From positions 310,001 through 374,000 of the forward strand of contig JAJPEQ010000004.1 of NCBI GenBank assembly GCA_021166775.1: DNA of 64,000 bases, in the 5' to 3' direction. The notes under the pieces were generated by a model. It was not told where the DNA came from. It searched no databases and saw only the letters and a list, made by a program, of their open reading frames with translations. Numbering within the stretch: the first letter of the stretch is position 1; each line of letters begins with the position of its first letter. The DNA comes from Comamonas sp. GTDB taxonomy: Bacteria; Pseudomonadota; Gammaproteobacteria; Burkholderiales; Burkholderiaceae_C. Of the stretch, positions 38,230 to 55,653 are shown piece after piece. The translations under genes and the position numbers were made by a program.

Positions 38230-38553
38230 ATGAAGAAGACGAACAAGTTCTCGACCGAGGTGCGTGAGCGCGCAGTGAGAATGGTGCAGGAGCAGCGCGG
38301 GGAGTACCCATCCCTGTGGGCTGCCATCGAATCCATTGCCCCCAAGATTGGCTGCGTGCCGCAGACCCTGAACGAGTGGGTCAAGCGTGCCGAAGTCGAT
38401 GCAGGCACGCGAGAAGGCGTCACCACAGCCGAAGCCCAGCGGGTCAAGGAGCTGGAGCGCGAGGTCAAAGAATTGCGCCGAGCCAACGAGATTTTGAAGC
38501 TGGCCAGCGCGTTTTTCGCCCAGGCGGAGCTCGACCGCCGGCTCAAGTCTTGA
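38230..38553 (+). CDS. IS3-family transposase OrfA
   Basis: 107-residue helix-turn-helix protein ([31 protein letters not shown]) with a C-terminal leucine-zipper-like helix ([20 protein letters not shown]), standard for OrfA of the IS3 group. It would bind the IS ends and, through a -1 frameshift near its 3' end (GCG TTT TTC run around 38509-38517), yield the OrfAB transposase. The stop at 38551-38553 overlaps the orfB frame. Confidence 0.93.
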
Positions 38554-39461
38554 GGGCCTTTATCGACCAGCAGCGCAATGCTTTCGGGGTCGAGCCGCTC
38601 TGCAAGGTCTTGCAGGTTGCCCCGTCAGCGTATCGGCGCCACGCCGCGCTGGTGCGCGAGCCTCACAAACGCTGCGCCAGAGCGAAACGCGACGAATTGC
38701 TGATGCCGCAGATTCAACGAGTCTGGCAGGCCAACATGCAGGTTTATGGCGCCGACAAGGTATGGCGACAACTAGCGCGCGAAGGCGTGACCGTGGCCCG
38801 CTGCACGGTAGAGCGTCTGATGCGCAGCATGGGCCTGCGCGGTGTGATGCGTGGAAGGGTGGTGCGCACTACGGTCGGCGATGCAAGAGCGCTATGCCCG
38901 CTGGACCGGGTCAACCGGCAGTTCCGGGCCGAGAGGCCGAACCAGTTGTGGGTGAGCGACTTCACTTACGTTTCGACTTGGCAAGGCTGGCTGTACGTAG
39001 CCTTCGTCATCGACGTGTTTGCCAGGCGCATCGTTGGGTGGCGGGTGAGCAGTTCAATGCGCACGGACTTTGTTCTCGACGCCCTGGAGCAAGCCCTCTA
39101 TGCCCGTCAGCCTGAGCGCGATGGCAGTTTGGTTTGTCACTCCGATAGAGGCTCGCAATACGTCAGCATTCGCTACACCGAGCGACTGGCGGAAGCTGGC
39201 ATCGAGCCTTCGGTAGGCAGCAAGGGCGACAGCTACGACAACGCCCTGGCCGAGACCATCAACGGCCTGTACAAGGCCGAACTGATTCACCGCCGGGCTC
39301 CATGGAAAACCAAAGAAGCAGTCGAGTTCGCCACGCTCGAATGGGTATCGTGGTTCAACCACCATCGCCTGCTCGAGCCCATCGGGTACATCCCGCCTGC
39401 CGAGGCTGAGGCAAACTACTATCGGCAACTTGCCAATCAGGCCACTGCTGTGGTGACCTGA
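38550..39461 (+). CDS. IS3-family transposase OrfB (DDE integrase domain)
   Basis: About 303 residues in the -1 frame relative to orfA, normally produced as an OrfAB fusion; the TTG at 38550 is a formal start only. The rve integrase core has the DDE residues in [17 protein letters not shown] and [12 protein letters not shown], all intact, so the element may be active. HTH_21-like sequence ([18 protein letters not shown]) precedes the core. Confidence 0.93.
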
Positions 39462-52757: not shown

Positions 52758-54218
52758 ATGATCTCACGCGAACCCACGATAGAGCGCCTGGCAACCGCCC
52801 GCGCGCTGTTGCTCGAACCCTTCGGCCTCGACGAGAGCCACCTCACGCGGGCGTTGGCGCACATCCGCGCGCACCGCGTCGATGACGCCGATCTGTATTT
52901 TCAATACACCCGCAGCGAGGGCTGGAGCCTGGAGGAGGGTATCGTCAAGACGGGCTCGTTCTCCATCGACCAGGGCGTGGGTGTGCGTGCCGTGAGCGGC
53001 GAGAAGACCGCGTTCGCCTATTCCGACGATATTTCAGAGGCCTCGCTGCTGGATGCTGCCCGTGCCGTGCGCTCGATCTCCAGCGCGGGCAAGGCGGGGC
53101 GCGCCAAGGTGGCGCTGCGCAAGGTGGCCAGGAGCCGTGCGCTGTATCCGGCGCTCGATCCGATCGCCACGCTGGGCAGCACCGAGAAGGTGCGCCTGCT
53201 CGAACGGGCCGAGCGCGCCGCGCGCGCCAGGGATCCGCGCGTCGCCCAGGTGATGGCGGGCCTGGCTAGCGAGTACGACGTGGTGCTCATCGCCCGCGCC
53301 GACGGCACGCTGGCGGCCGACGTGCGCCCGCTGGTGCGCCTGTCGATCAGCGTGATCGCCGAGCACAAGGGGCGGCGCGAGATCGGCTCGGCCGGCGGGG
53401 GCGGGCGTTTTGGCCTGGCGTGGTTCAGCGATGAGCAGATCACGCAATATGTGAACGAGGCGGTCGACGCGGCGCTCGTCAATCTGGAGTCGCGACCCGC
53501 GCCCGCGGGCGAGATGACGGTGGTGCTGGGCCCCGGCTGGCCGGGCGTGCTGCTGCACGAGGCCGTGGGCCACGGGCTGGAGGGCGACTTCAACCGCAAG
53601 GGTTCGAGCGCCTTCACGGGCCGCATCGGCGAGCGCGTGGCCGCCCGCGGCGTGACGGTGCTCGACGACGGCACGATGCCCGACCGCCGGGGCTCGCTCA
53701 ACGTCGATGACGAAGGGCACCCGACGCAGCGCAACGTGCTGATCGAGGACGGCATCTTGAAAGGCTACATGCAGGATGCGCTCAACGCCCGCCTCATGGG
53801 TGTGCCGCGCACCGGCAACGGCCGGCGCGAAAGCTATGCTTACGCGCCCATGCCGCGCATGACCAACACCTACATGCTCGCGGGTGACAAGGACCCGCGG
53901 GAGATCGTCGCCAGCATCCGGAGGGGTCTGTACGCGACCAATTTCGGCGGTGGCCAAGTGGATATCACCAGCGGCAAGTTCGTGTTTTCCGCGAGCCAGG
54001 CCTGGTGGGTGGAAAACGGCAAGCCGCTGTACCCCGTCAAGGGCGCGACGCTGGTGGGCAGCGGCCCCGATGCACTCAAGAAGATCCGCATGATCGGCAA
54101 CGACCTGCAACTGGACAGCGGCGTGGGCACCTGCGGCAAGGAAGGCCAGAGCGTGCCCGTGGGCGTGGGCATGCCCACGCTGCGCATCGACGCGCTGACC
54201 GTGGGCGGCACGGCCTAA
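52758..54218 (+). CDS. tldD: TldD metalloprotease subunit
   Basis: 486-residue TldD, which with TldE (PmbA) forms a zinc protease degrading unfolded peptides and maturing some modified peptides. The zinc motif HEAVGHGLEGD is intact near residue 265. Other family blocks are SFSIDQGVGVRAVSGEKTAFAYSD, GYMQDALNARLMG and GGGQVDITSGKFVFS. Start MISREPTIERLA at 52758 is preferred over an ATG three codons earlier. The partner pmbA is not in the window, as is usual. Confidence 0.93.
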   Translation: MISREPTIERLATARALLLEPFGLDESHLTRALAHIRAHRVDDADLYFQYTRSEGWSLEEGIVKTGSFSIDQGVGVRAVSGEKTAFAYSDDISEASLLDAARAVRSISSAGKAGRAKVALRKVARSRALYPALDPIATLGSTEKVRLLERAERAARARDPRVAQVMAGLASEYDVVLIARADGTLAADVRPLVRLSISVIAEHKGRREIGSAGGGGRFGLAWFSDEQITQYVNEAVDAALVNLESRPAPAGEMTVVLGPGWPGVLLHEAVGHGLEGDFNRKGSSAFTGRIGERVAARGVTVLDDGTMPDRRGSLNVDDEGHPTQRNVLIEDGILKGYMQDALNARLMGVPRTGNGRRESYAYAPMPRMTNTYMLAGDKDPREIVASIRRGLYATNFGGGQVDITSGKFVFSASQAWWVENGKPLYPVKGATLVGSGPDALKKIRMIGNDLQLDSGVGTCGKEGQSVPVGVGMPTLRIDALTVGGTA

Positions 54219-54263
54219 GAGGCTGTGAATCTCTCCCTCATGCGGGGGAAACCCACAGCCTCT
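54218..54263 (+). terminator. Hairpin after tldD, possible terminator
   Basis: AGAGGCTGTG (54218-54227) and CACAGCCTCT (54254-54263) form a perfect 10-bp inverted repeat with a 26-nt loop, starting at the tldD stop codon. No T-run follows, so intrinsic termination is uncertain; it may instead protect the 3' end. Confidence 0.45.
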
Positions 54264-54292
54264 GTGTTGTGGCGTGCAGGCAACGCCGCGTG

Positions 54293-54322
54293 TTGCGGTG
54301 CGGCAAATCATCGTGCTACATT
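54293..54322 (+). promoter_or_regulatory. Candidate promoter for the DAHP-synthase leader
   Basis: TTGCGG (54293-54298), an 18-nt spacer and TACATT (54317-54322). Transcription would begin about 7 nt later, which is exactly the ATG of the leader peptide (54329). Confidence 0.5.
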
Positions 54323-54328
54323 GGACGC

Positions 54329-54385
54329 ATGGCTACGCACCACGCGTTTTACTTTTACTTTTGGTACTCGACCGCAGGCGGTTGA
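54329..54385 (+). CDS. Aromatic-rich leader peptide of a DAHP-synthase attenuator
   Basis: 18-codon ORF encoding MATHHAFYFYFWYSTAGG, with seven consecutive Phe/Tyr/Trp codons (codons 7-13). It lies between a promoter-like sequence and an intrinsic terminator upstream of aroG. The composition is that of a translational sensor for charged tRNA-Phe, tRNA-Tyr and tRNA-Trp, analogous to PheL in E. coli. There is no good Shine-Dalgarno sequence; the -10 box is only 6 nt upstream, so translation is probably leaderless. Confidence 0.8.
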   Translation: MATHHAFYFYFWYSTAGG

Positions 54386-54459
54386 GAGGTACGCGCGCAC
54401 GCATTCAGTTCCTTCTCTTCAAGAAAACCGCCGCAGCGACAGACGCCCGGCGGTTTTTT
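54371..54459 (+). terminator. Attenuator: alternative hairpins and terminator before aroG
   Basis: The terminator stem is AAAACCGCCG (54424-54433) with CGGCGGTTTT (54448-54457), 10 bp perfect, followed by a T-run. An upstream GGCGGTT (54377-54383), overlapping the leader stop codon, can pair with AACCGCC of the terminator's left arm (54426-54432) as antiterminator. ACCG-CAGG-CGGT (54371-54382) is a small competing hairpin. A ribosome at the stop codon would cover GGCGGTT and allow termination; a stall at the aromatic codons would free it. Confidence 0.8.
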
Positions 54460-54495
54460 ATTGGCTTTCAATCAACTGACCCAAGGAAGACCGAC

Positions 54496-55653
54496 ATGAC
54501 CCCCCCGAGCAGCAAGAACGACACCTGGCAGTACGGCACGCCCACGACGAGCGCCACCGACGACCAACGCATCCAGGAAATTACCGTGCTGCCCCCTCCC
54601 GAACACCTGATCCGCTTTTTTCCGATCCGGGCCACCCCGGTCGAAACCCTGATCGCGGACACGCGCCGGCGCATCCACCGCATCTTGCGCGGCGAGGACG
54701 ACCGGCTGCTGGTGATCGTCGGGCCGTGCTCCATTCACAACCCCGATGCGGCCATTGAGTACGCGCGCAAACTCCAGGCCGTGCGCGCCAAGTACCGCGA
54801 TCAGCTCGAGATCGTGATGCGCGTGTACTTCGAAAAGCCCCGCACCACCGTCGGCTGGAAGGGGCTGATCAATGACCCCTACCTCGACGGCAGCTACCGC
54901 ATCGACGAGGGCCTGCGCATCGCGCGCGAACTGCTCATCGACATCAACCGCCTGGGCGTGCCCGCGGCCAGCGAATTGCTGGACACCATCAGCCCGCAGT
55001 ACATCGGCGACCTCATCAGCTGGGGCGCGATCGGCGCGCGTACCACGGAAAGCCAGGTGCATCGCGAGCTGGCGTCGGGCATGTCGGCGCCGATCGGCTT
55101 CAAGAACGGCACCGACGGCAACATCCGCATCGCCACCGATGCGATCCAGTCCGCCAGCCGCGGCCACCACTTCCTCTCGGTGCACAAGAACGGGCAGGTG
55201 GCCATCGTGCACACCAGCGGCAACCAGGACTGCCACGTGATCCTGCGCGGCGGCAAGGAGCCCAATTACGACGCGGCCAGCGTGGCCGCGGCGTGCGAGT
55301 CGCTCAAGGCCGCGGGCCTCGCGCCCTCGCTCATGATCGACGCGAGCCACGCCAACAGCCGCAAGCAGCATGAGCGCCAGGTCGAGGTGGTGGGCGACAT
55401 CGCGGCGCAGGTGGCCGGCGGCTCGCAAGCCATCTTCGGCGTGATGATCGAGAGCGCGCTGGTGCCGGGCGCGCAGAAGTTCACGCCGGGCAAGGACGAT
55501 CCGCGCCAGCTCGTCTACGGCCAGAGCATCACCGATGCCTGCCTGGGCTGGGACGATTCGCTGGGCTGCCTGGAGACCCTGGCGCAGGCCGTGCTCGCGC
55601 GCCGCAAGAACGCGCCGGTGGCGGCGCAGGCCGAAGTCCTGGCATCGGTGTAA
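54496..55653 (+). CDS. aroG: 3-deoxy-7-phosphoheptulonate (DAHP) synthase, class I
   Basis: 385-residue enzyme joining phosphoenolpyruvate and erythrose-4-phosphate at the entry to the aromatic pathway. Motifs are [18 protein letters not shown] near residue 75, [42 protein letters not shown] and [19 protein letters not shown] precedes the ATG. It is preceded by a Phe/Tyr/Trp leader peptide and attenuator, so expression should fall when aromatic tRNAs are charged. Which amino acid inhibits the enzyme cannot be told safely from sequence; aroF is an alternative name. Confidence 0.95.

Follow-up and report, generated by a model that had tools for sequence, protein, structure and literature searches.

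The question raised by this locus is how transcription of aroG, whose product is the common entry enzyme of the shikimate pathway, could be tied to the supply of aromatic amino acids. Within the window (the whole 64,000-nucleotide stretch of DNA that was analysed) aroG is preceded by a short reading frame dense in aromatic codons, and a preliminary description had read the region as a case of ribosome-mediated attenuation. That reading is supported by conservation, compensatory changes and masked folding, and from the parts, their geometry and the folding energetics taken together with these we consider it highly likely that the region subjects aroG to ribosome-mediated transcription attenuation. 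The locus is composed as follows.

Up to 54218, + strand: end of a PmbA/TldD-family peptidase gene, the 5′ neighbour of the leader region
54313–54322, + strand: extended −10 promoter element GTGCTACATT, with a 6-nt gap to the leader ATG
54329–54385, + strand: leader ORF MATHHAFYFYFWYSTAGG of 18 codons, stop codon TGA at 54383–54385, without a Shine-Dalgarno sequence
54347–54367, + strand: control codons Phe-Tyr-Phe-Tyr-Phe-Trp-Tyr (TTT TAC TTT TAC TTT TGG TAC)
54367–54386, + strand: 1:2 (protector) hairpin of 8 pairs, predicted by folding of the window sequence only
54377–54389, + strand: segment 2, the antiterminator 5′ arm, GGCGGTT plus GAGAGG
54411–54433, + strand: segment 3, a CU-rich stretch (54411–54418) and the terminator left arm AAAACCGCCG (54424–54433)
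54448–54459, + strand: segment 4, the terminator right arm CGGCGGTTTT (54448–54457) and a T-run to 54459
54483–54489, + strand: Shine-Dalgarno sequence AAGGAAG of aroG
54496–55653, + strand: aroG, class I 3-deoxy-7-phosphoheptulonate (DAHP) synthase, 385 aa

The preliminary description had named an 18-codon ORF with seven aromatic codons in a row, a terminator stem with a T-run and a GGCGGTT segment able to pair with the terminator. All three are found, with the ATG at 54329 and the run at 54347–54367, with terminator arms at 54424–54433 and 54448–54457, and with GGCGGTT (54377–54383) complementary to AACCGCC at 54426–54432 in the left arm. The description thus stands as worded; the start of its interval does not, as it lies 36 bases ahead of the ORF start. 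The AroG product is recognised by TIGR00034, at 526 bits against a cut-off of 173, and by Pfam PF00793; the narrower AroG model NF006723 gives 540 bits, slightly under its cut-off of 568. An inverted repeat without a T-run, GAGGCTGTG...CACAGCCTC, lies at 54219–54262, immediately after the stop codon of the PmbA/TldD gene.

The terminator hairpin at 54424–54459 has a predicted energy of −20.7 kcal/mol (z = −5.6), and none of 200 shuffled sequences was as stable. A simple terminator scan of the window, with a loop limit of 8 nt, missed it, probably because its loop is longer than this. The 1:2 hairpin of the window sequence reaches −11.7 kcal/mol, a stability equalled by 2 of 200 shuffles.

An aromatic run of this kind is not expected by chance. 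In the 2.9 Mb genome, TTTTACTTTTACTTTTGG at 54347–54364 is the only match to the pattern TTYTAYTTYTAYTTYTGG. Among 991 480-nt stretches drawn at random from the window, no short ORF had at least 6 aromatic codons in 8 and four had 5; a control set of 200 antisense upstream regions yielded one with 5 and none with 6. A chance origin of the aromatic ORF is rejected by these controls together with shuffles.

We then looked for the leader in relatives, defining it as a short ORF upstream of aroG that has 5 or more aromatic codons in a stretch of 8. The family sample comprised one aroG upstream region from each of 143 of 150 genomes, two genomes without an aroG match and five with an unlisted match being left out; the upstream region of a second DAHP synthase gene (L175) was omitted, and one lying inside a tandem DAHP synthase gene (L176) was replaced by L288. 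The leader is present in 139 of the 143 regions. Two more have 4 aromatic codons in 8 and seemingly carry the same leader, and the remaining two are interrupted by contig ends. Typical peptides of the relatives are FYFAYFWFS...GGREA and FYFYFWFSVPGG, and GGCGGnnGAGAGG is common in their segment 2.

The 80 named aroG loci include 67 that satisfy this definition, of which 65 were kept. YFWFS-like leaders occur in Comamonas, Acidovorax, Variovorax, Polaromonas, Hydrogenophaga, Ramlibacter and others, MSAKFYFYFFW-like leaders in Burkholderia, Caballeronia and Paraburkholderia, and YFYFS-like leaders, with a cluster lacking Trp, in Massilia, Janthinobacterium and Rugamonas. The leader is missing from three Polynucleobacter records of this set and from two of its three Cupriavidus records. 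Across the order, the leader was found in 21 of 61 genomes and 12 of 31 families, the other 40 genomes lacking it under the 5-of-8 rule; these 61 come from 72 genomes with an aroG match, the other 11 having lower-scoring matches only. In the wider class outside the order, 67 genomes had an aroG match; the loci of 29 of them were inspected and one of these 29 had a leader.

This one locus (L333, genome G453, same class and another order) has an aroG leader of the same type, ARFYRWYYFPKPPAEEGVRAF, which matches our covariance model of the leader (R1, below) at E 7e-11; either transfer or an older origin would account for it. A relaxed DNA pattern, TWYx5-TGG, matched 64 of 300 genomes across the order, mostly at scattered positions, and leaders were therefore sought upstream of aroG instead. 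The unique leaders kept number 216. Pattern matches away from a listed aroG (L016, L017, L050 and L053) are excluded from this set, as are two doubtful ORFs (L272 and L287, the latter from a record titled Devosia) and a membrane-like ORF (L323). When the leader collection still contained them, L272 and L016 gave no terminator. The L053 match (G336:C59) lies in an ORF that contains a DLDLDFYFYFYFYFYFYFWY run and whose contig is not the one carrying aroG.

The codons of the run point to selection on the peptide. Family leader clusters contain 577 Phe, 215 Tyr and 132 Trp, Phe being the most frequent, and both Phe codons (TTT 378, TTC 199) and both Tyr codons (TAC 150, TAT 65) are used, which indicates that the peptide is conserved and not merely the DNA. 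All three residues are present in 128 of 139 family leaders, a composition that fits the plausible proposal, made from sequence, that one leader senses Phe, Tyr and Trp jointly. Trp is absent from 30 of the 216 leaders. The cluster lacks Trp in ten named leaders of Massilia, Janthinobacterium, Rugamonas, Oxalobacteraceae and Oxalobacter, two of which have Trp further on. TTT makes up 66% of Phe codons in the family clusters and 185 of the 265 Phe codons of the named leaders, against 128 of 604 (21%) in 77 named aroG genes, where Tyr usage is similar to that of the leaders. As a guess, the less-used Phe codon may slow the ribosome.

The leader appears to be tied exclusively to aroG. We built the covariance model R1 from the leader alignment and searched genomes with it. 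The genome of the window has one strong match, at the aroG leader, the next best having an E-value of 0.004. In 60 family genomes there are 58 matches at E 2e-11 or better, followed by the next at 3.9e-6, and 57 of the 58 lie just 5′ of the listed aroG (coordinates compared by eye), the 58th belonging to a genome without a listed aroG position (G338). As R1 was built partly from these same family loci, the search supports exclusivity and is not an independent discovery. Upstream of the second DAHP synthase gene, none of five regions (L290 and L324–L327) reaches 5 aromatic codons in 8. In one genome (L288, G432) the leader stands before two tandem DAHP synthase genes, and an attenuator there might govern both. 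Weak R1 matches in family genomes span 23–35 bits; those of 33–35 bits that lie away from a listed aroG, at G355:C219:1830–1928, G305:C50:4077–4169 and G320:C2:263277–263364, are possibly other attenuators with a similar terminator.

A terminator is predicted downstream of all 216 leaders, its arm starting 50–69 nt past the last aromatic codon in 203 of them, and the best-pairing segment starts 7–12 nt past that codon in 185. In 188 of 216 the run is followed by GGCGG and the terminator arm contains CCGCC. A further common element, GAGAGG next to GGCGG, pairs with the CU-rich stretch ahead of CCGCC; over 188 leaders the duplex energy is −6.95 kcal/mol, compared with −6.02 kcal/mol for segments combined from different species (20 such combinations, the lowest at −6.26). 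The conservation check suggested by the preliminary description therefore came out in its favour, with the leader ORF, the terminator and the antiterminator segment all kept in relatives, and with compensatory changes between segments.

These changes are clearest in seven loci (L080, L081, L093, L094, L101, L103 and L124; exceptions of this kind were counted before the excluded loci were removed), where segment 2 reads CCGACGG and segment 3 CCGTCGG, and segment 4 is still CCGGCGG. At the changed position segment 3 is left with only a G·U pair to segment 4. L036 behaves likewise at the next position (CAGCGG/CCGCTG/CGGCGG), and L040 has an altered, much longer helix. Since segment 3 has changed together with segment 2 and segment 4 has stayed constant, segment 3 appears to be adapted to segment 2. 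The CCGACGG group probably represents one evolutionary event. Elsewhere in the relatives C:G to T:A changes run across all three segments.

Statistical tests agree, to a modest extent, as GGCGG/CCGCC is nearly invariant; the shuffles used in them ignore the relatedness of the sequences. The pair next to GGCGG/CCGCC, seg2[−1]:seg3[+1], is complementary in 149 of 182 leaders, counted before the excluded loci were removed, compared with 132.3 in shuffles (0 of 2000 as high), and no covariation was seen for seg2[+1..+4]:seg3[−1..−4]. In an alignment of 73 sequences, 92.3% of terminator cells are paired. For the antiterminator the figure is 80.4%, compared with 17.7–54.6% when the partner is slid, and 14 cells are changed on both sides versus 4.2 in shuffles. 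The antiterminator covariation score is 0.087 versus 0.066 in shuffles (0 of 500 reach it) and at most 0.049 with a slid partner. Further pair types, at 8 versus 8.8 in shuffles, are not in excess, and with the partner slid by +3, 6 pairs are changed on both sides versus 4 in the true register (cells, 10 versus 14). Collectively, the compensatory changes, some of which the terminator does not demand, support a predicted antiterminator that shares the left arm of the terminator.

We modelled the switch by folding with a ribosome mask that reaches 12 nt past the A site, counting 2:3 pairs in RNA without segment 4. For the window, 11.7–12.9 2:3 pairs are expected whichever of the seven aromatic codons the ribosome stalls at, and a ribosome at the stop codon gives 0, or 1.3 with the RNA upstream of the ribosome left free. 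The masked fold proposed in the preliminary description thus behaves largely as it had predicted. Without a ribosome, 2:3 forms (12.3 pairs) when segment 4 is absent, and 1:2 and 3:4 prevail in the complete RNA. At equilibrium the complete RNA of the window contains the terminator in every masked state (10.8–10.9 pairs 3:4), so that the switch must be kinetic and rely on the order of synthesis. The geometry in which a stall frees segment 2 and the stop codon covers it, which holds in the window, extends to relatives in direction more than in degree: stalling gives at least 5 pairs in 216 of 216 leaders, and more than 2 above the stop state in 211, and only 88 have no more than 2 pairs left in the modelled stop state. 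The contrast is weakest in the 49 leaders whose stop codon lies at least 36 nt beyond the last aromatic codon, where a median of 6.7 pairs remain.

The region hence has an ORF rich in the codons of the end products, a predicted intrinsic terminator and an antiterminator sharing its left arm, as is characteristic of attenuators, and a working model can be outlined. RNA polymerase would start at the leader ATG, or 1–2 bases from it, and a ribosome would load straight onto the 5′ AUG. When charged tRNA-Phe, -Tyr or -Trp is scarce, the ribosome is expected to stall in the aromatic run, leaving segment 2 (GGCGGTTGAGAGG) free to pair with segment 3 ahead of the synthesis of segment 4; with 2:3 paired no terminator would form and aroG would be transcribed. 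When charged tRNAs are ample, the ribosome would travel on to the stop codon within segment 2 and cover this segment, so that the 3:4 terminator could form and transcription would end with an RNA of about 130 nt. In RNA free of ribosomes the 1:2 hairpin could tie up segment 2. Judged from sequence, aroG is very probably responsive to amino acid supply in this way, being on only when Phe, Tyr or Trp is scarce.

How translation of the leader begins is a separate matter. An SD-like motif is found at −20 to −5 of the leader ATG in 1 of 214 leaders, against 20.7 expected from shuffles, and precedes the in-frame aroG ATG (chosen by script) in 136 of 175 relatives. An extended −10 consensus, GTGCTACAtT, stands at similar spacing over 214 leaders; a search for strict TGnTAnnnT within 25 nt upstream of the start codon in 216 leaders gives 167 occurrences (shuffled mean 1.9), of which 157 end at a distance of 6–8 nt from that codon. 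At −1, 77% of 215 leaders have a C, a count made before the excluded loci were removed. This spacing of the −10 box, the near absence of SD-like motifs and the C at −1 are the pattern expected if transcription begins at the A of the AUG, and the leader ORF is probably leaderless, with a predicted start at the A of ATG 54329. Leaderless mRNAs are reported for Burkholderia cenocepacia (PMC4603805) and Cupriavidus metallidurans (PMC7563307). We regard it as unlikely that the same attenuator works with a leader ORF translated from a longer transcript or a more upstream start. Such a start would be available, given that another in-frame ATG, GTG or TTG lies within 117 nt upstream before any stop in 165 of 216 leaders (14 of them with an SD-like motif) and that a GTG ORF in the window, 54005–54385, continues in frame into the leader, but the placing of the −10 box, the missing SD-like motifs and the base at −1 all argue against its use.

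Two further readings would remove the ribosome from the switch altogether. The hairpin alone might be a constitutive partial terminator or an RNA stability element beside an incidental aromatic ORF, and the terminator is indeed the most stable element at equilibrium; however, the run is kept as a peptide, with alternative codons in use for both Phe and Tyr, and is found in 12 of the 31 families sampled in the order, its distance to segment 2 is nearly constant, and segment 3 changes track segment 2 while segment 4 retains the G·U pair, which makes this reading very improbable. We give still less credence to a ligand- or protein-binding riboswitch or a tRNA-sensing T-box in place of a translated leader. 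Any switchable terminator could qualify as one, and nothing positive speaks for it here: the Rfam covariance search of the window returned no leader family at the gathering threshold (its sole match, ALIL, lies elsewhere) and, up to E = 10 on the + strand, nothing relevant, His_leader reaching 15.9 bits on the − strand (gathering score 49). By eye, the alignment has no further conserved structure beyond the terminator and the antiterminator; what it has instead is a conserved coding run.

The E. coli leaders trpL and pheL belong to ribosome-mediated attenuators, in which a leader ORF with control codons ends at a stop near segment 2. The aroG attenuator that we propose shares with them the leader ORF, the control codons and the mutually exclusive antiterminator and terminator before a biosynthetic gene, and differs in mixing three aromatic residues, in lacking an SD sequence and in preceding the gene of a common entry enzyme. 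Mechanistically it is a classical attenuator, and leader peptides before DAHP synthases are already known in Corynebacterium and Acholeplasma. In Corynebacterium glutamicum, the aroF leader peptide (cg1129) is described as a putative attenuator with Phe-Tyr-Phe before a DAHP synthase (PMC4046766); the organism belongs to another phylum, and the aroG leaders differ in having up to 8 aromatic codons, often with Trp. The same source reports small leaderless mRNAs and cites a paper on how a leader peptide is made at ilvBNC when there is no ribosome binding site. The uORFC-13-1 motif of Acholeplasma aroF, likewise located ahead of a DAHP synthase gene, is a predicted uORF that contains one or more Phe codons and lies next to a terminator (PMC8632094). 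Unlike the aroG leader it has a ribosome binding site and is confined to Acholeplasma and environmental sequences, and the passage on it mentions no Tyr or Trp codons.

Predicted aroF and aroH RNA motifs of Shewanella (PMC2659441) are noted for attenuation or termination at DAHP synthase genes, and a table in that paper gives an aroF attenuator sensing tyr-tRNA, with reference to an E. coli paper; the passages concerned describe no F/Y/W leader, in contrast to aroG. The attenuator RNA of Sinorhizobium meliloti trpL (rnTrpL, with the peptide peTrpL) starts at the leader ATG and yields a short terminated transcript, according to the relevant part of PMC7298713. It differs in being a Trp leader before trpE(G) of an alphaproteobacterium and in its reported trans activity. 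By analogy, the RNA of about 130 nt, its aromatic peptide or both might also act in trans on other genes and so broadcast the supply of Phe, Tyr and Trp, an idea that we hold to be rather doubtful.

No Pfam or NCBIfam model matches the leader peptide in five relatives, the 18 residues of the window peptide falling under the 20-residue limit. We found no account of an aroG leader for Burkholderiales in open-licence PMC papers, where an earlier mention is possible, for example in supplementary tables. The name aroG is absent from the main text, as available, of two Burkholderia cenocepacia papers (PMC4603805 and PMC5688073) and of the Cupriavidus paper (PMC7563307), and the parts of PMC5343134 and PMC4448311 at hand contain nothing on such a leader. 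New in this analysis are the breadth of the leader's occurrence, its apparent exclusivity to aroG, the evidence from compensatory changes and a start that is probably leaderless.

These findings offer a prediction of how the entry step of the shikimate pathway is controlled in many Burkholderiales, an order with numerous soil and plant bacteria and some pathogens among its members. They present a candidate sensor of three amino acids together through an ordered codon run, for which a covariance model is provided, and a conserved case of a leader peptide apparently translated without a 5′ untranslated region. The latter allows a test of whether leaderless initiation brings tighter coupling of ribosome and polymerase in attenuation.

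Elsewhere in the window, at 38508–38624 on the + strand, the Rfam search identified an ALIL pseudoknot (RF01497, 112.5 bits). We take ALIL to be the frameshift element of IS3-family insertion sequences, and an insertion sequence is probably present at this position.
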